From: a virus
Virus record (IMG/VR): IMGVR_UViG_3300033182_000142
Location: 1 to 30,557 of that record
Direction: 5' to 3' (one strand)
Length of the DNA stretch: 30,557 bases
Shown: piece after piece, positions 7,037-28,152 of the stretch
How positions within the stretch are numbered: the stretch's first letter is position 1
Layout: the number at the start of each line of letters is the position of its first letter
The notes under the pieces: model-generated
Database searches by the model: none
What the model was told of the DNA's origin: nothing
Seen by the model: the letters and a program-made list of their open reading frames with translations, nothing else
Position numbers and translations under genes: made by a program

Positions 7037-8415
7037 TGGCACAAGTAGATTTTTTTTATGACGACCAAATTCGTCGTTTCTTATTGCAGTTTACTCGTAT
7101 CTTTAGTGGGTTTCAAGTAGAGTATGGCAAAGACGACTCGGGGAACCCAACATACCAAACAGTGCCTGTTCGATACGGCGATGCATCAAGACAAGCACAA
7201 ACTATTATTGCCAATAACAGTGCAAACTCAATGCCGTGTGCACCAATGATGAGCTTTTATATTAGTGGGCTTGAGTATGCGAGAGACCGTGTACAAGATC
7301 CTTACTTCGTTGACAATAGAACATTTCGTCAACGCGAATGGGACCCGGCAACTGAATCATACGAAAAGACTCAGGGGAATGCATTTCAGGTTCAACGTCA
7401 TATGCCTGTGCCATACAACATGCAAATTAAACTAGATATTTGGACTACTAATACGCAACAGAAGTGGCAGCTAGCAGAACAGATACTTCCTATGTTTAAC
7501 CCTTCGTTAGAAATACAATCAACCGATAACTATATTGATTGGACCAGTTTGAGTGTAGTAGAACTAACCGGTGTAAACTACACTTCGCGCTCAATTCCAA
7601 ACAACGAAGAGCAGATTGATATTATGACCTTAACATTCACACTTCCATTCTGGATCACTATGCCAGCAAAGGTTAGTAAGAACGGGGTTATACACAAAAT
7701 AATTGCTAACATATACGATTCCGACGGCGATATAAACAATGCTATCACAGACGACGACATCTTACTTGGTACACGTTTAAAAATCACACCGCATGGGTAC
7801 AAAGTCTTATATATTGGTAATGAACTACAAGTAGTTGCACATAATGCAGTAGGTACCAGCCAAGACGATTTATCTTCATTGGACTTTGATATGACAAGTA
7901 CACTGTTGTGGCAACCAATTATTGAAGAATACGGCACACTTCGTCCTGGTATTACACAAATACGTTTTGAGGACGAAGACGAAGGCTTAGAAATTGTTGG
8001 AACTATTGCTTATAATCCAACAGACGAGAAGAAACTTATCTTTACCGTTGACGAAGATACACTGCCACAAAATACTCTTACCCCTATTAGCAAAGTTATC
8101 AATCCACTAACAGCAGGACCAGGTGCAGGACTAGCAGCGGCAGCAACAGGACAACGTTACTTGCTAACAGAATCAATTGGCAACAGCGAGAACACTGATG
8201 CAGCAGATGCATGGGGCTCACTGGTTGCTAACAAAAACGACATCATCCAATACAATGGCACAAACTGGACGGTACACTTTGATTCTAGTACTGTTGACTC
8301 AAGGGAATATGTAGTCAATAACCACACTTCGTTACAATACAAATGGACTGGCTCTGAATGGGTTCGCAGTTACGAAGGCTTGTATACAGGTGGCAATTGG
8401 TCAATAGTGATATAA
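7036..8415 (+). CDS. 15: Tail terminator / sheath stabiliser gp15
   Basis: A 459-aa protein. The N-terminal 220 residues align in outline with T4 gp15 (272 aa): FFYDDQIRRFLLQFTRIFSG matches T4 YFYNSSFRRY, followed by VPVRYGD, then WQLAEQILPMFNPSL matching T4 EQILPYFQPH. In T4 this protein caps the tail tube and sheath and binds the neck. The C-terminal half is an extension unlike T4. It contains an Ala-Gly hinge near residue 360 and then a small repeated-looking module with DIIQYNGTNWTVHFDSS and SLQYKWTGSEWVRSYEG. That module type suggests an exposed carbohydrate- or surface-binding decoration (inference). Translation is likely coupled to gp14 through the TAATG overlap. Confidence 0.9.
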   Translation: MAQVDFFYDDQIRRFLLQFTRIFSGFQVEYGKDDSGNPTYQTVPVRYGDASRQAQTIIANNSANSMPCAPMMSFYISGLEYARDRVQDPYFVDNRTFRQREWDPATESYEKTQGNAFQVQRHMPVPYNMQIKLDIWTTNTQQKWQLAEQILPMFNPSLEIQSTDNYIDWTSLSVVELTGVNYTSRSIPNNEEQIDIMTLTFTLPFWITMPAKVSKNGVIHKIIANIYDSDGDINNAITDDDILLGTRLKITPHGYKVLYIGNELQVVAHNAVGTSQDDLSSLDFDMTSTLLWQPIIEEYGTLRPGITQIRFEDEDEGLEIVGTIAYNPTDEKKLIFTVDEDTLPQNTLTPISKVINPLTAGPGAGLAAAATGQRYLLTESIGNSENTDAADAWGSLVANKNDIIQYNGTNWTVHFDSSTVDSREYVVNNHTSLQYKWTGSEWVRSYEGLYTGGNWSIVI

Positions 8416-19719: not shown

Positions 19720-22700
19720 TAACTAGCAACTCCTACGCTTAATGCGGAAATACTTTCGCCGCTTGCTAATGCTATACGCACTAGTACTACGTTGCCTGTA
19801 GCGTTTGACATGTTTTCAGATCCTAAAGTTAATGTGTACGAACTATTTAAGCTAGTTCCTGTTGGAACAATATCTGCCGCAGTAAACGCACAGCCATTAC
19901 TGCCGTTACCGCCATTGCCTGTGTCGGCACCCGGTACACCTGCACCTGCGTATTGAACAGTTGAGTCTAGCCAACCGTTTAGAGTTGATGCACTGTCAAT
20001 CGCTGTTCCTGGAGCTGCAATCCACAAACCCGTAATACCAGTGCTAGAAGTAATAGCAACGTCAAAGTTAGCAACTACCTGTCTGCGGAAAGCAAACGTA
20101 AAGTATTGTGTGCCTGTGTCACCTGAACGATCTGGACCTGCTGGCAAGTTTGTGCTGTGATCTGTTGTATCGTGCTGTAGCAAGCCTTGTAGTACGCTTG
20201 CTTCTTGCGATCCTGACATACCAGGATCTGATGTGCTTGTATAAGGATCATTTGTGTAATAGTTAGTAGCACCATTAAACGATGGCGTATCTGTGGTTGC
20301 AGCAATAAAGTCTGCAATACGCAAACCATCGTCTGTGTAAACACCGTTACCCAAACTGTCACTAACTGGAATAATAAACTCGTTAATACCTGCAGGAGTT
20401 TCTGTTTGAACACGAATAACTTGATCTAGTTCTGCATAACTGCCTGTGCCGTTAACGTTCTTCATTCTAAACTTGATTTTTTCAGCAGCGGTTACACTAG
20501 AACTTGTTAGTGTAATAGTTTGATCGCCAATAGCATATGGTGTGCTTGATGTTTTACCAGTGTTAGCATTAGGAATGCCACCTGTTAAGTACGAGCTTGC
20601 GCCATCTAGGTCAGCATAAGTTTTGTATTGTGTGCTTAGTACGCTGTCGGTTGTTCCGTCAACGTTAGTACCGCCTGTGATTTCAAACGGTGTAGTTGTG
20701 TCTTGATATGCTTGACCAATCCAATCGTAAACTTCGACACCGCTCAATGTTAGTGTTGAGCCGCTGGCGTAGTACGGAATGCCTGAAATATAGTTGTATG
20801 TTACACTATCTTCTGTTAGTGTAGCACTGGTTAAATCAACTGTTGGAGTGTTAGTAACATCGTCACGCACAATAGCAACATAGTTGGTGTTGCCTGTTGC
20901 GTCGTGTTCAATACGCTCGTCGTTAACACCTACTGAGTAAGCAGTAATTGGTGCTGTGATCTTGGCATCAAATGTCTGGTAGAAGCCAGTTGGGTAAGTT
21001 GCTGCTGATATAGTATCATTGGCATCTCTGTTGTCACTAACTACCAAATATGTAAATGTGCCATTCTCATTTAGTGTGGTTGAGAATGTTTTAGAACCTT
21101 GTGTTGTTCCATTGATAACTGCTGACGCTGTGCCACTCAAACCGTTGTAGGCGTTAGCAATAACGCTTGTGTCAATAGTGCCAGATGCATAACGACGTGC
21201 TGTAGTTGTGTTTATGCTGTCGCCTGCGCTTAGTGGGCTTGTGTCCGAATTGTCAGTGAAGCCAGCAGCAAGTTTAGGACTTGTGCCTTGTGCTACATCA
21301 GCTAGAGTAATAGTTTTTGAACTAACACCTGCTGGTGCTGCTGGAACACTATTAAGTTGGAATACAATAGTTTCAGAATCTGTTTGCGCAGTAATGTCTG
21401 GTGTGCCGTTAGCAGTAAATGTTAGAGTATGATTTCCAATAGTTTCACCGCTGTAATCGTGATCAATAGTTGCGCCAATAGTACCAGCAGTTGATCCATC
21501 TTCAGAAAGCGTGTCATTTGTGCTTGTATCTCCCCAATCGTAAACATAATCGTCACCGTTTTGTGATGTGTTTGTAACACGAACTAGCGCACGGTTGTTA
21601 CCATTATAGTCTGTGCCATCATAAATGTCGTAGATGTTGTCGCCTGTTTTGTCGCTAACTGTGATTGCTGTGCCAGCAACATTAGCGCGAACATCTGGCT
21701 CAACGTGAACTGTAAAGTCTGATGAGATAAATGGCGAACTGCTGTGATTAGAAATAACACGCAAGTTACCCGTGTAGTCAACTGCTGTGCCGCTTGCTTG
21801 GTTAGCACTGCTTAACGCATAGGTGTGGCTAATAGTGCCACTTGTGTCACCACTTGCACCAGAACCTACATTAACTGTAGTTGTATTACCATCGCCCCAA
21901 GTGTACAAGTATTGAATGCCGTAGGTAGCATACGAACCAATAGTTGACTCTGTGTTGTTTGTAAACGTAACAGGTAAACCGCTAGTGCCTTCTTCGTTGA
22001 TACCAGTTGTTGTTGATAACGCAACAGTTGGTGTATGCGTGTCATAAATCTTGAATGCGTTGTTGTCATCTGTTGGAATACTAGCAGGCAATGCCGTAGT
22101 GTGCGAGTCAAGTGTAAGCGTTACAGTCCTTGTTTGTTCTTCTTCAGTTGAAGTGGTAAATGTATGACTAATACGACCACCGCCAACGCCGCCAGGGTTG
22201 CTATCGCTAGATACGACAGTGTCTGACGAGCCATCGCCCCAATCCCATGTATACTGGACTGTAGCGCCTGATGTATTTGTTGTAGTGTTTTCAAAGTAAA
22301 TTGTGTCACCGTCGTCCCATTGTGTGATAGGCGATCCGCCTGTTGCTGCTGCGTATGCCGAGAAGCTAACAACAGGATCTGCTGTGTAAAGTGTTATGTA
22401 ATCTTCGCGGGTCTTACTGATACTACTGCCTGCGCCTGATCCATTATGATTGTATGCTGTTACTGTAACATCAAACGGTGATCCAGTATTAGTAGCATAA
22501 GTGTGTGTTGGTGTTGAGTCTGTTGTACCAGTTGTGGTGTTGCCGTCGCCCCAGTTAATGGTGTAGCGAGTTGGGTTACCATCTGCTGTGATAGTTAGCG
22601 TAGTAACCATACCAGCGCCACCAGTTAAGTTGTCGCCAGTAAAATCAATGTTAGCAACAGCAGTATCATTGATCATATTTGTTGCTAGTTCGTTTAAGTC

Positions 22701-23126
22701 ATCAATGGCATCAGTTACATAAGTTGAAGTAGTCCAATCGTTAATCGCGCCTTCAGGGTATAGCGATGTATCAGTTGGTGTGCCTAATGTTACAGACATA
22801 CCAGTAGTACCAGTTGATACTAAAGTGTCAATTGATGACCAAGTTAATCCGCCTGCACCATCGGTGGTTAATACATAATCAGCACTGCCGCCAGAGATTG
22901 TAATATCTCCAACTGCACCTAAGTCTAGGTCGCCCGAAGTAGAACGTATTTGGCTACCGTTGATGGTTATGTTATCAACTTGTAATGATTGTGTAGGGGT
23001 TGCTGTGTTAACACCAATGCGGCTGTTAGCAACGTCTACATATAATAAGTTTGTTTCAATGGACAGATCGTTATCTCTTGCGAGATTATCTGATAACATA
23101 TTGCCGTCAATTTTGTTAATAGCCAT
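19719..23126 (-). CDS. Large adhesin-like tail protein with PKD-type repeats (1135 aa)
   Basis: ATG 23126-23124 starts 3 bases after the preceding stop. The N-terminus (MAINKIDGNMLSDNLARDND, then NSRIGVNTATPTQSLQVDN) looks like a fibre attachment module. Four WGDG-type signatures lie at about residues 192, 296, 410 and 531 (the last as WGDT). Each is followed by an H-T-(Y/F) or HDY motif 15-25 residues later, the pattern of PKD/Ig-like domains spanning roughly residues 165-580. The remaining half is beta-rich, with a VYDWIGQAYQD segment. It lacks the YADLAEKY C-terminal domain of the other large fibres and instead ends in an NVVLVRIALASGES strand. PKD domains usually mediate carbohydrate or protein contact. 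Likely a tail spike, baseplate extension or adhesin; the exact place in the virion is unknown. Confidence 0.84.
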   Translation of the reverse strand: MAINKIDGNMLSDNLARDNDLSIETNLLYVDVANSRIGVNTATPTQSLQVDNITINGSQIRSTSGDLDLGAVGDITISGGSADYVLTTDGAGGLTWSSIDTLVSTGTTGMSVTLGTPTDTSLYPEGAINDWTTSTYVTDAIDDLNELATNMINDTAVANIDFTGDNLTGGAGMVTTLTITADGNPTRYTINWGDGNTTTGTTDSTPTHTYATNTGSPFDVTVTAYNHNGSGAGSSISKTREDYITLYTADPVVSFSAYAAATGGSPITQWDDGDTIYFENTTTNTSGATVQYTWDWGDGSSDTVVSSDSNPGGVGGGRISHTFTTSTEEEQTRTVTLTLDSHTTALPASIPTDDNNAFKIYDTHTPTVALSTTTGINEEGTSGLPVTFTNNTESTIGSYATYGIQYLYTWGDGNTTTVNVGSGASGDTSGTISHTYALSSANQASGTAVDYTGNLRVISNHSSSPFISSDFTVHVEPDVRANVAGTAITVSDKTGDNIYDIYDGTDYNGNNRALVRVTNTSQNGDDYVYDWGDTSTNDTLSEDGSTAGTIGATIDHDYSGETIGNHTLTFTANGTPDITAQTDSETIVFQLNSVPAAPAGVSSKTITLADVAQGTSPKLAAGFTDNSDTSPLSAGDSINTTTARRYASGTIDTSVIANAYNGLSGTASAVINGTTQGSKTFSTTLNENGTFTYLVVSDNRDANDTISAATYPTGFYQTFDAKITAPITAYSVGVNDERIEHDATGNTNYVAIVRDDVTNTPTVDLTSATLTEDSVTYNYISGIPYYASGSTLTLSGVEVYDWIGQAYQDTTTPFEITGGTNVDGTTDSVLSTQYKTYADLDGASSYLTGGIPNANTGKTSSTPYAIGDQTITLTSSSVTAAEKIKFRMKNVNGTGSYAELDQVIRVQTETPAGINEFIIPVSDSLGNGVYTDDGLRIADFIAATTDTPSFNGATNYYTNDPYTSTSDPGMSGSQEASVLQGLLQHDTTDHSTNLPAGPDRSGDTGTQYFTFAFRRQVVANFDVAITSSTGITGLWIAAPGTAIDSASTLNGWLDSTVQYAGAGVPGADTGNGGNGSNGCAFTAADIVPTGTSLNSSYTLTLGSENMSNATGNVVLVRIALASGESISALSVGVAS

Positions 23127-23129
23127 CTA

Positions 23130-23552
23130 TTATACCTGTGTTGAAGCTACGCCGTGAATCACGGTAATCTGCACACCGGTTGGCGGTGCACTTGTAAACG
23201 TAATATCATAACTTCCATCTACTGTGTAGTTTGTTGTTGGTGTTTGGAAAATACCATTCACAAATACCAAAATGTTTTCTGCGTAATCTACTGCGTAAGT
23301 CATTGATCCAAATACAGTTGTTGATGCATCGCCTGTAAACGAATCTACAGTGATATCAACCATGCCTTCTAGTGCTAGACTATCCCACGAACTTCCATTA
23401 TACACTTCTAAATTACCTGATGTTGTGTTAAAGCGTGTTGCTCCTACACTAGGTGCAGCAGGACGTTGTGCTGCTGTGCCAACAGGCAAAACAACAGACT
23501 CAACTGTTCCTTGGTTTAACAATGAGTTTTTGAGTGTATAACCTTGGGCCAT
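23130..23552 (-). CDS. Small fibre-module protein (140 aa)
   Basis: A stand-alone copy of a module found inside two large fibres. LPVGTAAQRPAAPSVGATRF, then TSGNLEVYNGSSWDSL, corresponds to TAQRPGTGAQGMMRFNTTN..LEYHDGTAWRNM in the 1847-aa protein and to the equivalent part of the 839-aa protein. The second half (SFTGDASTTVF, ILVFVNGIFQTP, FTSAPPTGVQI) also aligns with the domain that follows in both large proteins. The start is ATG 23552, one base after the preceding stop. It is in the late fibre operon. It may be a fibre collar or connector subunit that packs like the internal module; this is inference from the shared sequence. Confidence 0.82.
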   Translation of the reverse strand: MAQGYTLKNSLLNQGTVESVVLPVGTAAQRPAAPSVGATRFNTTSGNLEVYNGSSWDSLALEGMVDITVDSFTGDASTTVFGSMTYAVDYAENILVFVNGIFQTPTTNYTVDGSYDITFTSAPPTGVQITVIHGVASTQV

Positions 23553-23553
23553 A

Positions 23554-23868
23554 TTAGATGCTCGTGTAACTTACTACTGCGTTAAACGTAGTTGCTGCGC
23601 TGCCTGTAGCAACCAGTGTGTCGCCGTTTTCTAGCAATAACTTTTCGCCGCCTGCATACAACTGGTGTGTATCTGCTGCGTTGATTGAGTAGTCTTTGAT
23701 TACAATGTTGTCATTGCCTGCCGAGTCACCTGATGGTACCAAGTGAATAGTAAGTGTCGCTGAACTACCAGAGTAGTTTGTAAATGAGGCAAATGTAATT
23801 GCAGAATTACCGCTCGAGGTATAAACTGTTGTTGCTGTATTGCCTACTAGGTTTGTTTCTAATGCCAT
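23554..23868 (-). CDS. Small beta-rich structural protein (104 aa)
   Basis: A 104-aa protein with the pattern of a jelly-roll or beta-sandwich: NLVGNTATTVYTSSGNSAIT, FTNYSGSSATLTIHLVPSG, NIVIKDYSINAADTHQLYA, then KLLLENGDTLVATGSAATTF. No Cys, no membrane segment. The start ATG 23868 has AAGGA 8 bases upstream that overlaps the intergenic gap from the 228-aa gene. Similar small proteins appear among marine phage virion genes (recalled, without a defined job). Position within a tight five-gene fibre operon suggests a tail or fibre accessory subunit. Confidence 0.8.
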   Translation of the reverse strand: MALETNLVGNTATTVYTSSGNSAITFASFTNYSGSSATLTIHLVPSGDSAGNDNIVIKDYSINAADTHQLYAGGEKLLLENGDTLVATGSAATTFNAVVSYTSI

Positions 23869-23877
23869 TTTTAATCC

Positions 23878-24564
23878 TTAGAAAATAATGCTGTAGACGA
23901 TTGCTTTTGCTTTTGAAACCAATTCGTCATTTGTTGATGTAGTTCTGAAATATACGCCAGAACCGCCTGAACCTTCTGTTTTGTGGTAAAGTATGTTGTA
24001 GCCTGCTTCCGCTGTTGGATCACCTGTGCGAAGTTTTAACTTTAGGTCGGCGTCAATATATACATCACCACCTGTGTCTGGAGCAATGACAATATCACCG
24101 CCGCCTACAGAAACAATTGACTGCCCGTTAACATCTAGATCACCGCCAAGTTGCGGAGTAGTGTCTTGTACTACATCTGTTAGTGCTGTGCCGCCACCGC
24201 CTGAAGTGAAGCCAATATCGCTCCATATATTACCGTCAACCGATAACTGCCAAGCGTCTGTGGTTTCGTTAAAGCGTATACCTGCGCCGTATCCAGATGT
24301 GCCATCGTTTAACGTACCTCTGTCAACTACTACGGCTGCTTCGCCAAGCGTGACACCTGCTTCGGTTTCACCTTCATTGAGCATGATTGTGTTGTTGCTG
24401 ATGTTTAGGTTTGTTTCACTTACAACAGCAGAATCACCTGTTACAACTAAGTCGCCTTTTACACGAAATACTTCCGTAGTCACTGTTACTTCATTGGCAG
24501 TGTTGCCATCTTCATCAATTGTCTCAATGTTATAGTCGCCGAGAATTCGATCAGTAGTACTCAT
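23878..24564 (-). CDS. Fibre-related structural protein, first of fibre operon (228 aa)
   Basis: A 228-aa protein beginning at ATG 24564 with AAGG upstream. Early segments (RVKGDLVVTGDSAVVSETNL, NISNNTIMLNEGE) echo the LTV.GNLTV..T.TTVNSTTV modules of the giant fibre; GIRFNETTDAWQLSVDG resembles the RFNTTN..L module. A QLGGDLDVNGQSIVS segment near residue 140 is a short beta turn repeat. The C-terminus (about residues 185-228, ILYHKTEGSGGSGVYFRTTS) looks like a compact tip or attachment domain. As first gene behind the perfect late promoter, it may be the most abundant member of the operon, perhaps the part that links fibres to the baseplate. This is inference from order and modules. Confidence 0.8.
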   Translation of the reverse strand: MSTTDRILGDYNIETIDEDGNTANEVTVTTEVFRVKGDLVVTGDSAVVSETNLNISNNTIMLNEGETEAGVTLGEAAVVVDRGTLNDGTSGYGAGIRFNETTDAWQLSVDGNIWSDIGFTSGGGGTALTDVVQDTTPQLGGDLDVNGQSIVSVGGGDIVIAPDTGGDVYIDADLKLKLRTGDPTAEAGYNILYHKTEGSGGSGVYFRTTSTNDELVSKAKAIVYSIIF

Positions 24565-24586
24565 ACAATTTTACCTTGTTATTGTA

Positions 24587-25165
24587 CTATTTATATAAAG
24601 ATTGAAACTCCGTTTTAGTAATCGTTTTTAGATTTTCAATGGCGTTCATTTTGTCGTACCTGCAGCTTGCATCTGTTACGACTCTGTAAAAATCAATACG
24701 CTTGTTTTCTTTCATTATCTGCATTATTTGATTAAACCAGTTACCGCCAAATGTTGCTTTGTCAGTTGACTTTTTATAATGTTGCGAATCGGCGTATAGG
24801 TTGTTAAACAAGTCGCCTACACTGCCTAGGTCAAACCCTAGCAAGTAAATTTTTAAATGCTCTTGTTTGCTGCGGCATGCTAGGTTAAGTGCATTAGGGC
24901 CCGAGCTCATTCCGCTATAGGTTGGATCAAGTTTTTTACTGCCTGAGTCTGCAAAGGGTCTGCGTGTCCAATGTACGCAGTTATCATTCTTAGGCCAACC
25001 ACTATCTTGTATTTCTCTGCTGATACCAGGATCTGTTGACACTAACACATCAGGATCAAATTCTCTATACAGAGCATTGCACCCAAATATCTCCCCATGC
25101 TTTCTTAGTGCGTGTAAGTCAATGCCTTTGCGGCTTACACCATTTCCTAATACAAACGCAGTCAT
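24587..25165 (-). CDS. GT42-like (sialyltransferase-fold) glycosyltransferase candidate
   Basis: A 192-aa protein whose motifs follow the bacterial sialyltransferase family GT42 (Campylobacter CstI/II type) as I recall it. These are FVLGNGVSRKGIDL (residues 4-17; CstII has AGNGPSLKEID), EIFGCNALYREFDPDVLVST (25-44), SSGPNALNLA (87-96), KIYLLGFDLGS (105-115), and DSQHYKK (126-132), where H129 corresponds to the catalytic His region of CstII. It is shorter than CstII (about 260-290 aa). Substrate and donor are unknown; the phage could modify a capsid or fibre protein or host surface glycan. It lies between the gp23/148-aa units and the fibre operon. Its ribosome binding site is inside the upstream terminator hairpin. 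Its last codons contain the next operon's late promoter. The fold call is moderate; DUF115-type proteins are the alternative. Confidence 0.8.
   Translation of the reverse strand: MTAFVLGNGVSRKGIDLHALRKHGEIFGCNALYREFDPDVLVSTDPGISREIQDSGWPKNDNCVHWTRRPFADSGSKKLDPTYSGMSSGPNALNLACRSKQEHLKIYLLGFDLGSVGDLFNNLYADSQHYKKSTDKATFGGNWFNQIMQIMKENKRIDFYRVVTDASCRYDKMNAIENLKTITKTEFQSLYK
24588..24595 (-). promoter_or_regulatory. Perfect late promoter TATAAATA for the fibre operon
   Basis: TATAAATA, exact T4 late consensus, on the minus strand 23 bases before the 228-aa start codon. It is encoded within the last codons (Tyr-Lys-stop) of the GT42-like gene. It would serve the five genes from 24564 to 17200. Confidence 0.8.
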
Positions 25166-25166
25166 T

Positions 25167-25201
25167 AAAAAACCCTCTTAACGTATGTATCGCTAAGAGG
25201 G
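25167..25201 (-). terminator. Terminator whose 3' arm is the next gene's ribosome binding site
   Basis: Perfect 8-bp stem CCCTCTTA/TAAGAGGG (25201-25194 with 25180-25173), a 13-base loop and then six U on the minus strand. The 3' arm AAGAGGG is 7-8 bases before ATG 25165, so it also reads as the Shine-Dalgarno of the GT42-like gene. In the folded state the site is paired. Confidence 0.9.
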
Positions 25202-25222
25202 CGGGTATGAACTAAAAACTAA

Positions 25223-25669
25223 TTATTGTACGTCGTTCTCAATTTGAGCAACGTCAATAGTACCAGTTGAGATAGTTTCTGTGTCGTCTGCAATATCAGT
25301 AAATGATAGTGCTACTTTATCGCCAGAGTGTGTAATACCAAACTTGTTTGAAATACGCTCTAGACGGTCTGCGCCTGAACCAGGTAGTGTAACAGTCATA
25401 GTCATTTCGTCTGCTGCTAGTGCGCCGTCGTTTTTATCAACAACAGTACATACGCCTTCGTTTGAACCATCAGATACTAGGAACTTGCGAGAACCTTTCT
25501 GGCGGATGATATAACCATCTGCTTCTGCGTTAGCACCAACTTTAACACGAACAACAACTTGTGCGCCTGTTAGTGCTGTGTTACCACCAGCAACACCTAC
25601 AGAGTAAGTACCGCCAGTTTTTGCCTGGCCGCTAGTGTTAGTTTTTTGAATTTTTAGTGGACGTCCCAT
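25223..25669 (-). CDS. Probable virion structural protein (148 aa)
   Basis: Starts at ATG 25669-25667 with GGAG 7 bases upstream; the longer frame reading upstream (Arg/Pro-rich) is rejected as leader. The start MGRPLKIQKTNTSGQAKTGG is a type that I recall for small structural proteins of marine T4-like phages. The body is beta-rich: a GGNTALTGAQVVVRVKVGAN strand pair, then DGYIIRQKGSRKFLVSDGS and CTVVDKNDGALAADEMTMTV, ending in a short acidic stretch. One Cys, no membrane segment. It forms a single-gene late transcription unit immediately after gp23, bounded by terminators at both ends, which suggests high and separate dosage. A head decoration or tail component is the likely role; neither is proven. 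Confidence 0.8.
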   Translation of the reverse strand: MGRPLKIQKTNTSGQAKTGGTYSVGVAGGNTALTGAQVVVRVKVGANAEADGYIIRQKGSRKFLVSDGSNEGVCTVVDKNDGALAADEMTMTVTLPGSGADRLERISNKFGITHSGDKVALSFTDIADDTETISTGTIDVAQIENDVQ

Positions 25670-25738
25670 TTGTTTTCTCCTTAATGTTGACGTTCTAGGT
25701 CTACGCGGTGGGTGCCGCATAAGTTCTATGAACAACAG

Positions 25739-25746
25739 TATTTATG
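25739..25746 (-). promoter_or_regulatory. Late-type promoter (CATAAATA) for the 148-aa gene
   Basis: CATAAATA on the minus strand, 69 bases before ATG 25669, just after the gp23 terminator. The leader would hold a short GTTC-ATA-GAAC hairpin near its 5' end. Confidence 0.7.
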
Positions 25747-25770
25747 CTGTACTATCAAGAACTTACAGTC

Positions 25771-25805
25771 AAAAAAATACCTGCCGAAGCAGGTATTTTT
25801 ATTTT
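25771..25805 (-). terminator. gp23 terminator with UUCG tetraloop
   Basis: On the minus strand a 12-bp stem AAAAATACCTGC/GCAGGTATTTTT closed by TTCG, the very stable UUCG loop, followed by UU (part of a seven-U run). It follows the gp23 stop by about 20 bases. The plus strand reads CGAA and also has T-runs, so it may work weakly both ways. Confidence 0.92.
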
Positions 25806-25822
25806 CTAGCCTACGCTTAGAA

Positions 25823-27013
25823 TTAAGAGAATGACAAGTTAGATACTGAAATCTCTGAAACGTAGTCACCAGCGTTACCTAGTGAAGATGCTGTGTTGCT
25901 TAGTTCCACATAACCGTAGCGAGTCATGAATGAAACAACTGGCTCAAATGTTGATGGATCTAGTACAACGCCTGAAGACATTAGAGGAACGTATGGGCAG
26001 TAGAACGCTGCTGCGTCTGCCTCTGAAGAACCTTTGTAGCCTACTAGGACTGCTTGTGTGTCTGAAGCATATGAGTCAACATATACTTTCATAGCTGAGT
26101 TTAGCGTACCAACGAACTTAGTGTTAGTCGGAGCTTCAAATGTACCTTCAGTTGAACGTGCAAATGCAGAAGTTGTAGCTGATTGTAGTACAGTTAGAGC
26201 TGCTGGAGAAACAACTGCCCAGTTACCAGCGCCACGACGTGTACGTTGTGCGATCTGGTTAGCAGCGCGGTTCATCAATACTGCTAGTGCAGCATGCTCG
26301 TCGCCTACGAATGTAGCAGTACCAGAAACTGTTGCTTGGTTGTAAGCAAAGTCAGTAGATGCTAGTGAACGTAGAGAGTATAGAACCTCTTGGTCGATCT
26401 CAGCAGTAATTTCTTGAGCTAGTGCAGCCATGATTTCTGCTTCAACGTCGATACCGTGCATTGATTGTGCATCTTGTGCAGCTTCAAAAGTCCAGCGAGC
26501 TTGTAGCTTACGAGTACGAGCTTCAACTGTTTGCTTTAGAATCTGAACAGAAATGTTACGACCACCTGAACCTTCTAGTGCAGAAGTTGCGCCACCGTTG
26601 TAGTTAGCTTCAGATGAACCAGTACCAGAAGAGTATGCAGTAGCAATCTTGAATGGTGATAGTGCTTCTTCGCCAGCTGTAGTATCAGTGTTAACGCCTG
26701 AAGTATCGTTCATTGTAGTGCCATAACGTACACGCAAAGTGTGGATTTGGCCTACAGGACCAGTCATAGGTTGTACACCAACGATTTCGTTAGCGATAAC
26801 AGTCGGCATTACTCGACGGATAACTGGAAGAATAACGCGGTTCAAAGAAGCAACGTTACCAGAAGCAGTAGCGCCGCCAGAAGCAGCCTCTGCCAAATGA
26901 GTGCGAGTATTTTCCAATACTGCTGCCATTGTGTTACGGCGTGAACCCTGAAGACCTTCTAGAAGTGCTTCTTTAGTCTCGCCCCAACGGCTTTCTAATA
27001 GTTCTTTAGACAT
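25823..27013 (-). CDS. 23: Major capsid protein gp23
   Basis: A 396-aa major head subunit. The conserved block VGVQPMTGPVGQI (residues 78-90) is the hallmark of T4-family gp23, followed by HTLRVRYG. Later landmarks are RKLQARWTFEAAQDAQSMHG near residue 190, and AEIMAALAQEITAEIDQEVL. T4 gp23 has 521 residues and marine relatives about 450-470, so this is a short version. LAE|A at residues 40-43 fits the gp21 cleavage rule (hydrophobic-x-E, then small), so the first 42 residues may be the removed propeptide. AAGGA lies 8 bases before ATG 27013. It is the last gene of the gp67-gp21-gp22-gp23 run, 29 bases after gp22, and ends at a strong terminator. Hexameric capsid lattice of the prohead is the known role. 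Confidence 0.96.
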   Translation of the reverse strand: MSKELLESRWGETKEALLEGLQGSRRNTMAAVLENTRTHLAEAASGGATASGNVASLNRVILPVIRRVMPTVIANEIVGVQPMTGPVGQIHTLRVRYGTTMNDTSGVNTDTTAGEEALSPFKIATAYSSGTGSSEANYNGGATSALEGSGGRNISVQILKQTVEARTRKLQARWTFEAAQDAQSMHGIDVEAEIMAALAQEITAEIDQEVLYSLRSLASTDFAYNQATVSGTATFVGDEHAALAVLMNRAANQIAQRTRRGAGNWAVVSPAALTVLQSATTSAFARSTEGTFEAPTNTKFVGTLNSAMKVYVDSYASDTQAVLVGYKGSSEADAAAFYCPYVPLMSSGVVLDPSTFEPVVSFMTRYGYVELSNTASSLGNAGDYVSEISVSNLSFS

Positions 27014-27042
27014 TTTAAATTTATCCTTATTGCAATTTAAGA

Positions 27043-28152
27043 TTAAAGTCCCGCCAACTTCTTCATTGCAATGATGTTTGAGTTGTCATCATTGTCAACT
27101 TTAGCAGTAGTAACGGATTTTTTATCACCAGTGACTTCTTTTGACTCAGAGATTACAGTTTTCTTAGCAGGTGCTTCTGCTGTTACTTCTTTGTTCGCAA
27201 GAACTGCTGGCAAATATTTGTCAAATACAGACTGTAAACGGTTTGTCTGTACATTTTCTAAAAGCGAACGCATAACTGTTGCTTTACTTTCGTTAAGCGG
27301 AGTTAATAGTTCATCCATGATCTCAGTACGAGCGTTCGCTTCTTTGATCATTTTTAGTTCAGTGTTTTTAGATTCTACAAGAGCTTTTGCTTTTGTAGTA
27401 ATCTCAACGGCTTCAGCTAACTTAGAGTCTTTAGCTTCAATTTCTGAATGTAGGCGTTTGATTTCAGCGTTCTCATTAAGTAGAGTTGAGCCAAATTCAG
27501 CAGCATACGCTTCAAAAATACGACGACCAAAGTTGTTCTCACGAGCAACTTTAATGTCTTCATGAAGTGCAGACAATTCGTTAGATAGATGCTTGGCTAC
27601 AACACCTTTCACTTTAGCAGCGTTTTCAGCAACGAAAGATTCTTTCAATGCTTCTAACTTCTCTTTTGCTTCAGCTACTAGCTGTACCTTAGATTCAACC
27701 AAGTCGCGCTTGTCTTGTGCAAATTCGTTAATCTCTTTTGCAAGAGCTTTAACAACAAAGTTTTCCAACTTTGCAAAGCCTTCGCTTTGAATAGCACGGT
27801 CTTTACGCAACTCGCTAATTTCCTCTGCTAGTTTTGATGTCATAAAGTTGTTGAACTTGCCAGCACCTTCCAACATCTTAGTTTGGAACTTAACGCGATC
27901 TTCAGCAAGTGCAGCTTTTTCTTCTGCAAGTGCTTGAATCTCTGTGTTTAAACCTTCAGAAACCATGCGATCTAATGCTTCAACCATAACACTTTTATCG
28001 TGTTCGTAGCGTTGTGCAAACTCTTCACGTAGTTCTGCACGAACCTCTTCACGAGCTTCAGTAATCTTCTTATCCCACGCTTCGTTGAGTTCAGAAGAAA
28101 CATCTTCGTTAATTAGGCCGCTATCAATCAATGATTTGATTGCATCTAGCAT
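27043..28152 (-). CDS. 22: Prohead scaffold protein gp22
   Basis: A 369-aa protein, nearly all helical: Glu-, Lys-, Ala- and Leu-rich heptad-like segments from about residue 20 to 290 predict long coiled coils, as expected for the prohead core scaffold. It starts MLDAIKSLIDSGLINEDVSS, similar in style to T4 gp22 (269 aa). The last 60 residues are Lys/Thr/Asp-rich and probably flexible, ending NIIAMKKLAGL. In T4 gp22 organises the core and is degraded by gp21 during maturation; many x-x-E sites fit this. GGAG precedes ATG 28152 and the gene starts 11 bases after gp21. Identification rests on position between gp21 and gp23 and on composition. Confidence 0.92.
   Translation of the reverse strand: MLDAIKSLIDSGLINEDVSSELNEAWDKKITEAREEVRAELREEFAQRYEHDKSVMVEALDRMVSEGLNTEIQALAEEKAALAEDRVKFQTKMLEGAGKFNNFMTSKLAEEISELRKDRAIQSEGFAKLENFVVKALAKEINEFAQDKRDLVESKVQLVAEAKEKLEALKESFVAENAAKVKGVVAKHLSNELSALHEDIKVARENNFGRRIFEAYAAEFGSTLLNENAEIKRLHSEIEAKDSKLAEAVEITTKAKALVESKNTELKMIKEANARTEIMDELLTPLNESKATVMRSLLENVQTNRLQSVFDKYLPAVLANKEVTAEAPAKKTVISESKEVTGDKKSVTTAKVDNDDNSNIIAMKKLAGL

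Follow-up and report, generated by a model that had tools for sequence, protein, structure and literature searches.

A putative terminator hairpin with an embedded ribosome binding site and a late-promoter-like loop upstream of a GT42-like gene in uncultured T4-like phages

Background

The late genes e, soc, 49, I-TevI, I-TevII and segB of phage T4, and mobE of phage Aeh1, are described in PMC3014915 and PMC2988022 as carrying hairpins that sequester the ribosome binding site (RBS) and hold a late promoter, and these reviews interpret the T4 hairpins as screens against early and middle transcripts. The late-promoter box TATAAATA is placed at -13 to -6 in T4 (PMC1524935); the T4 late promoters listed in PMC2988020 include single deviations from the box and are AT-rich after it. 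Packing a second function into a terminator stem-loop also has a precedent in the HMP-PP riboswitch (PMC6478431), although that element is a ligand sensor whereas the second functions proposed here would be a promoter and an RBS.

In the open-access literature searched, we found no report of an intrinsic terminator that contains a T4-type late promoter. Here we describe a hairpin in which the logic of the T4 gene e and I-TevI hairpins appears to be fused to an intrinsic terminator, extending the known T4 trick.

Results and discussion

The locus and the GT42-like protein

The window, a 30,557-base IMG/VR fragment, carries a T4-like structural module whose minus-strand genes comprise a portal fragment, a prohead protease, gp23, a 148-aa gene and a GT-like gene (Table 1). 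Among isolates, its gp23 is closest to those of large T4-like phages, Vibrio phage 2.275.O coming first at 67.7%; further relatives are Pseudomonas phages such as PA5oct, Sinorhizobium phage Phosso and CBB-like phages.

Table 1. Features of the window around the hairpin
Feature	Position	Strand	Basis
Terminator hairpin, 12-bp stem, 7-nt loop ATACATA	25172..25202	-	Folding and shuffles; covariation in relatives
Shine-Dalgarno (SD) AGAGGG within 3' arm	25173..25178	-	SD-like run in arm of 68/74 regions
U tract of putative terminator, doubling as SD-ATG spacer	25167..25172	-	T content before ATG in relatives
Late-promoter-like site GATACATA, core TACATA 25184-25189, one base off TAAATA	25184..25191	-	Motif statistics; promoter activity inferred
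Predicted late-transcript start, leader AGAGGGUUUUUUA	25178	-	Inferred from T4 spacing
Major capsid gene, gp23 family	25823..27013	-	Pfam PF07068, E 2.9e-97
148-aa gene, upstream of hairpin	25223..25669	-	ORF list gives TTG 25735; SD belongs to ATG 25669
GT-like gene, 192-aa protein, GT42/Maf-like fold	24587..25165	-	ORF of 192 codons; profile, model and fold comparison
Late-promoter-like site CATAAATA of 148-aa gene, separate	25739..25746	-	Motif scan
Late-promoter-like site TATAAATA of next gene, overlapping GT stop codon	24588..24595	-	Exact TAAATA at same place in 75/76 regions

According to its structure model (mean pLDDT 90.9), the product of the GT-like gene has a fold like that of the GT42 sialyltransferases (CstI/CstII) and Maf glycosyltransferases, which agrees with the GT42-like assignment first made from the sequence. 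The model aligned with Maf 5mu5 (VIA Z 13.1, rmsd 3.7, 166 residues aligned) and with CstII 1ro7 (VIA Z 10.3, rmsd 3.8, 172 aligned), and Foldseek matched CstII at E 1.8e-4. The Pfam profile CST-I (PF06002, GT42) scored 14.4 bits, below its curated cut-off of 25, and we therefore call the protein GT42-like by fold and do not file it as a GT42 member. Unlike these enzymes it is short (192 aa), and it shares 14-18% identity with them; CstII has a catalytic His, whereas no His is invariant among 24 relatives of the phage protein. PHROG 30607, of unknown function, matched 24/24 aligned relatives and the sialyltransferase PHROG 4603 matched 13 of the 24.

Anatomy of the hairpin

On the minus strand the 5' arm (25202-25191), the loop (25190-25184) and the 3' arm (25183-25172) run into a stretch of T at 25172-25167, followed by an A at 25166 and the ATG at 25165. 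The sequence-only reading had proposed a hairpin with an 8-bp core, six U and this ATG; the arrangement is real, and the stem extends to 12 bp with two G-U pairs. Being G+C-rich, stable and followed by a U tract, it has the sequence pattern of an intrinsic terminator and resembles the intrinsic terminators of T4-like phages. Folding of the 81-nt region gives -22.9 kcal/mol vs -11.2 (sd 2.7) for shuffles (z -4.39), with 0/200 shuffles as stable. The claim that the 3' arm provides the only SD in reach also holds, AGAGGG being the sole SD-like run within reach of the ATG at 25165. A different true start codon with a free RBS of its own is excluded: an in-frame stop lies within the 3' arm just upstream of the ATG, with no intervening start, and the GT genes of relatives begin at the same place, with a conserved N terminus.

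Within the window alone, terminator-like sites in 22000-28000 were no commoner than in shuffles (5 vs 5.1), and sites with at most one mismatch from TATAAATA were not above chance (37 vs 38.6, a count outside which GATACATA falls, being two off the 8-mer). A single sequence thus makes the weaker case; it is the comparative evidence that carries the hairpin claim. Two further candidates were rejected. No sigma-70 promoter was listed in the loop, and translational coupling to the 148-aa gene was set aside because its stop ends 20 nt before the stem, which we judged too far for opening.

Conservation and covariation in relatives

Relatives were collected from scans with gp23 and with a GT alignment, the GT relatives being the best 80 of at least 591. 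The comparison used 80 distinct upstream regions, the window counted in and four loci without a usable start left out; the loci come from metagenomes and are to some extent redundant. Conservation of the stem in related phages had been named as a check on the sequence-only reading, and it was found: a hairpin was present in 77/80 regions, and TANNTA stood in or at the loop in 74/80 (among the matches listed). The regions without the element are L065, L128, L129, L148, L153 and L158; in L128 a terminator without the motif is accompanied by a separate GTAAATA just before the ATG.

Covariation was assessed in hairpins with at least 8/9 pairs in the 7-nt-loop register (44 of the 74, 43 distinct). 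In the 43 gap-free sequences 97.5% of cells were paired, a percentage that leans upward because good pairing in a single register was the selection criterion, and 10/11 pairs had changes on both sides. Shifting the partner by one column lowered pairing to 50% and 61%. This comparison of sequences indicates that the hairpin is selected and is not there by chance.

The element also separates clearly from other terminators at the same loci. GT terminators contained the motif in 69/71 cases and had an ATG within 20 nt in 68/71; for the other terminators the figures were 3/97 and 0/97, and the usual terminators of these contigs, unlike the element, have UUCG or CGAA loops (33/97). At least five T among the last six nucleotides before the ATG were found in 70/74 GT regions vs 1/410 other genes with an SD; the other-gene sets (803 regions, and the 410 genes with an SD) exclude 25 GT duplicates. 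A home-made covariance model, whose E-values are rough, gave the GT element as the best hit in 10/10 relatives' contigs, at E 1.1e-4 or better in nine and 0.199 in G003, the model itself including members from three of the ten (G002, G007 and G009). Among the matches listed, the pattern TANNTANNNNGAGGATTTTTTATG had 97 distinct matches, 92 of them directly 5' of a GT gene, and one more (L237) preceded a GT gene in another frame. Judged from this distribution of sequences, the element is tied to the GT gene. The view that a terminator overlapping the next gene's RBS is unusual thus stands against 0/97 other terminators in these contigs, but for the GT gene the overlap is the rule, and T4 offers close precedents that lack the U tract.

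At L237:7384-7500, a 16-codon frame begins at the ATG that follows the fused hairpin, and the GT gene lies in a different frame just downstream. The phage collection searched held no isolate with the element; a related gene occurred in three records, and in two pelagiphages the related genes overlap the preceding gene. Inspection by eye of 12 relatives in cellular genome bins revealed no such hairpin.

The loop motif as a late-promoter core

The loop site GATACATA agrees with the late-promoter box TATAAATA at 5/6 core and 6/8 overall positions. In a wider set (8 rows skipped; element absent in 6/153, namely L065, L128, L158, L162 twice and L163), the hexamer, among the matches listed, was exact TAAATA in 12/147, one base off in 135/147 and two off in 0/147. 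The TANNTA search pattern biases this set's TANNTA share, for which 74/80 is the figure to quote, and leaves the middle two bases unbiased. With the outer TA..TA fixed by definition of the motif, these two free positions read CA in 79, AC in 23, AG in 15, AA in 12, TA in 9 and AT in 9 of the 147 matches listed, and no TAGATA loop was among them. For independent positions in unrelated rows, one would expect about 28 double changes. Loop states change at least 20 times on the protein tree (73 of 74 GT proteins), so shared descent alone does not explain the pattern.

Elsewhere in these phages TAAATA was the only TANNTA clearly enriched upstream of the 803 other genes (295 vs 72.4 expected); the runner-up reached 1.48-fold, and TACATA was below chance (16 vs 32.5). 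Since TACATA and the other variants are not enriched elsewhere, late promoters in these phages do not usually take the loop form. The next gene has an exact TAAATA within 60 nt of the GT stop codon in 75/76 regions (10.1 expected), and in the 120 nt before the hairpin no exact TAAATA was found in 77/77 regions. Genes for gp55-like sigma factors were detected in 9/10 relatives' contigs (E 6.7e-7 to 3.0e-6 over about 70 residues). On sequence grounds, the loop looks like a T4-type late promoter that is usually one base off consensus. The neighbour's promoter keeps TAAATA, and 12/147 is not far from the 1/7 given by one exact and six one-off forms, so selection may ask only that the loop be good enough, without favouring strength. 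An enzyme gene next to capsid genes would be well served by a weak promoter.

The predicted start lies 9-16 nt before the ATG in 73/74 regions and falls on A or G in 71/74. Predicted pairing of the SD averaged 0.97 in read-through RNA vs 0.22 in the late RNA (n=74), reaching 0.99 in the window's read-through RNA, in line with the earlier expectation that read-through transcripts would hide it. Both cut-offs (sealed read-through RNA, open late RNA) were passed by 51/74 regions, and 6/74 arms lack an SD-like run near the start.

Comparison with the T4 hairpins

Our comparison of sequences placed the late box inside the hairpin in T4 e, I-TevI, I-TevII and segB. None of the six hairpins (these four, 49 and soc) has a run of five T after the stem, which argues that the examined T4 hairpins are not plain intrinsic terminators; gene 49 (TTTATT) comes closest to a U tract. 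A scan of T4 returned 62 terminator-like sites, and only gene 49 combined an SD in the arm with a start within 16 nt. As in the T4 hairpins described in the reviews cited above, the SD here is predicted to be hidden when RNA reads through, and initiation at the putative late promoter of the hairpin would give RNA without the 5' arm. Unlike them, the element is fused to a putative intrinsic terminator and its loop motif is usually one base off. The upstream genes here are capsid genes, so dose may be at stake and not timing, in contrast to the T4 screens.

Proposed mechanism and alternatives

The anatomy, conservation, covariation, motif statistics and gp55-like genes reported above lead us to propose that the hairpin is probably a three-in-one gene boundary: a terminator, a lid on the RBS and a late promoter in the loop. 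Transcription of gp23 and the 148-aa gene, the capsid genes, would end at the U tract, and transcripts that read through would keep the stem and so seal the RBS of the GT-like gene. A T4-type late-promoter core (TAAATA or one off) in the loop and its edge would be read by gp55-bearing RNA polymerase, with initiation about 6 nt downstream of the core, inside the 3' arm. The late RNA would then carry a 13-nt leader, AGAGGGUUUUUUA, before the AUG, without the 5' arm and with the SD free. Since a late start would free an SD that is predicted to be sealed in read-through RNA, synthesis of the enzyme would depend on the gene's own weak late promoter, independently of the heavy transcription of the neighbouring capsid genes.

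The sequence-only reading held that something must open the stem, such as a promoter or processing site in the loop or an antiterminator. Among these, the comparative data favour the loop promoter, but late initiation would omit the 5' arm, so nothing needs to open the stem. A transcript start within 25166-25193, which that reading counted against itself, is here the prediction, at 25178. Several observations weigh against the three-in-one boundary: the window's loop differs from the core at one base and from the 8-mer at two; TACATA and the other variants lack enrichment at other genes; the sequence after the motif is a G+C-rich 3' arm, unlike the AT-rich T4 late promoters; an SD-like run near the start is missing from 6/74 arms, and only 51/74 regions pass both cut-offs; and the SD would be at the very 5' end if the leader is the usual 10 nt. 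More tentatively, and with somewhat less than even confidence, these roughly 40 bp may act as a dosage insulator, in which a capsid terminator, an RBS lid and a late promoter at or just below consensus shield an enzyme needed in catalytic dose; the Maf/CstII-like enzyme would modify the capsid or the adjacent small protein.

The overlap could also reflect compaction only, the terminator's 3' arm doubling as RBS, with low expression from read-through and no promoter in the loop. Overlap of terminator and RBS does occur without the motif: a hairpin together with an ORF of at least 60 codons is present at 12 of the 93 listed non-GT matches to GAGGATTTTTTATG, and TAAATA stands in the hairpin of just three of these 12 (L359, L409 and L436); a DnaJ-like gene in L234 has a terminator beside its ATG without the motif, and the exact TAAATA loop is itself rare (12/147 listed). 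Compaction leaves unexplained, however, why TA..TA is present in 74/80 regions, why double changes are missing and why other terminators have the motif in 3/97 cases, and the SD is predicted to be paired in the very read-through RNA that would have to be translated. We regard it as unlikely. A loop that is conserved on a variable stem would also suit an RNA recognition element (UANNUA) at which a protein or small RNA opens the hairpin or blocks termination, giving an antitermination switch, and sensor-embedded terminators exist, as the HMP-PP riboswitch (PMC6478431) illustrates. Yet the letters permitted in the loop are those of the late-promoter core, a motif enriched at other genes, and Rfam gave no match to a known RNA family at the hairpin; we rate such a switch as quite improbable. 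An RNase processing site in the AU-rich loop, where cleavage of read-through RNA would remove the 5' arm and free the RBS, is in our estimate very improbable. In T4, primer extension cannot separate initiation from processing (PMC2988020), but a sigma factor would account for the TAAATA-like preference more readily than a nuclease, and cutting the loop might leave the 5' arm paired.

If the three-in-one boundary is correct, the classic hairpin of T4 can be combined with an intrinsic terminator to form a single compact gene boundary, kept across a large group of uncultured phages and with a similar form occurring singly at other genes. The natural one-base late-promoter variants, which these phages carry alongside the strict promoter of the neighbouring gene, would offer a probe of how gp55 reads the middle of the box, and the loop series would also be useful for learning how phages shield low-dose genes from capsid transcription.

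Related boundaries and other elements

Several other genes have boundaries of comparable form. Upstream of a DnaJ-like gene (L176:9682-10530, minus strand; G001), a terminator-like hairpin holds TAATTA in its loop region, and six T precede the ATG. Two relatives lack the full form: the terminator of L234 does not contain the motif, and in L235 no U tract accompanies a hairpin around TATAATA. At L206:18779-19874 (minus strand; G003), TATAAATA lies in a hairpin over the RBS with four T after it, resembling the T4 homing endonucleases; the protein matches a homing-endonuclease PHROG and, more strongly, a PHROG labelled NAD synthetase. L359, L409 and L436 have TAAATA in a terminator-RBS hairpin, and L436 weakly matches major head proteins.

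Within the window, a terminator-like hairpin with a UUCG loop follows gp23 at 25773-25800 (minus strand), and after it comes a separate late-promoter-like site; this is an unfused version of the same kind of boundary. Rfam placed RF02980 ('freshwater-2', cis-regulatory, 57.3 bits) at 25667-25740 (minus strand), in the leader of the 148-aa gene, spanning from the end of that gene's late-promoter-like site to its ATG. The family was present on the capsid strand in 13/13 relatives scanned (L003, L008, L018, L022, L023, L024, L029, L030, L034, L039, L040, L041 and L073), and it therefore looks like the leader of a late gene of T4-like phages. In the L040 phage contig, the interval between gp23 and freshwater-2 contains two glutamine riboswitch aptamers in tandem at 7450-7561 (RF01739, 48.4 and 61.1 bits).
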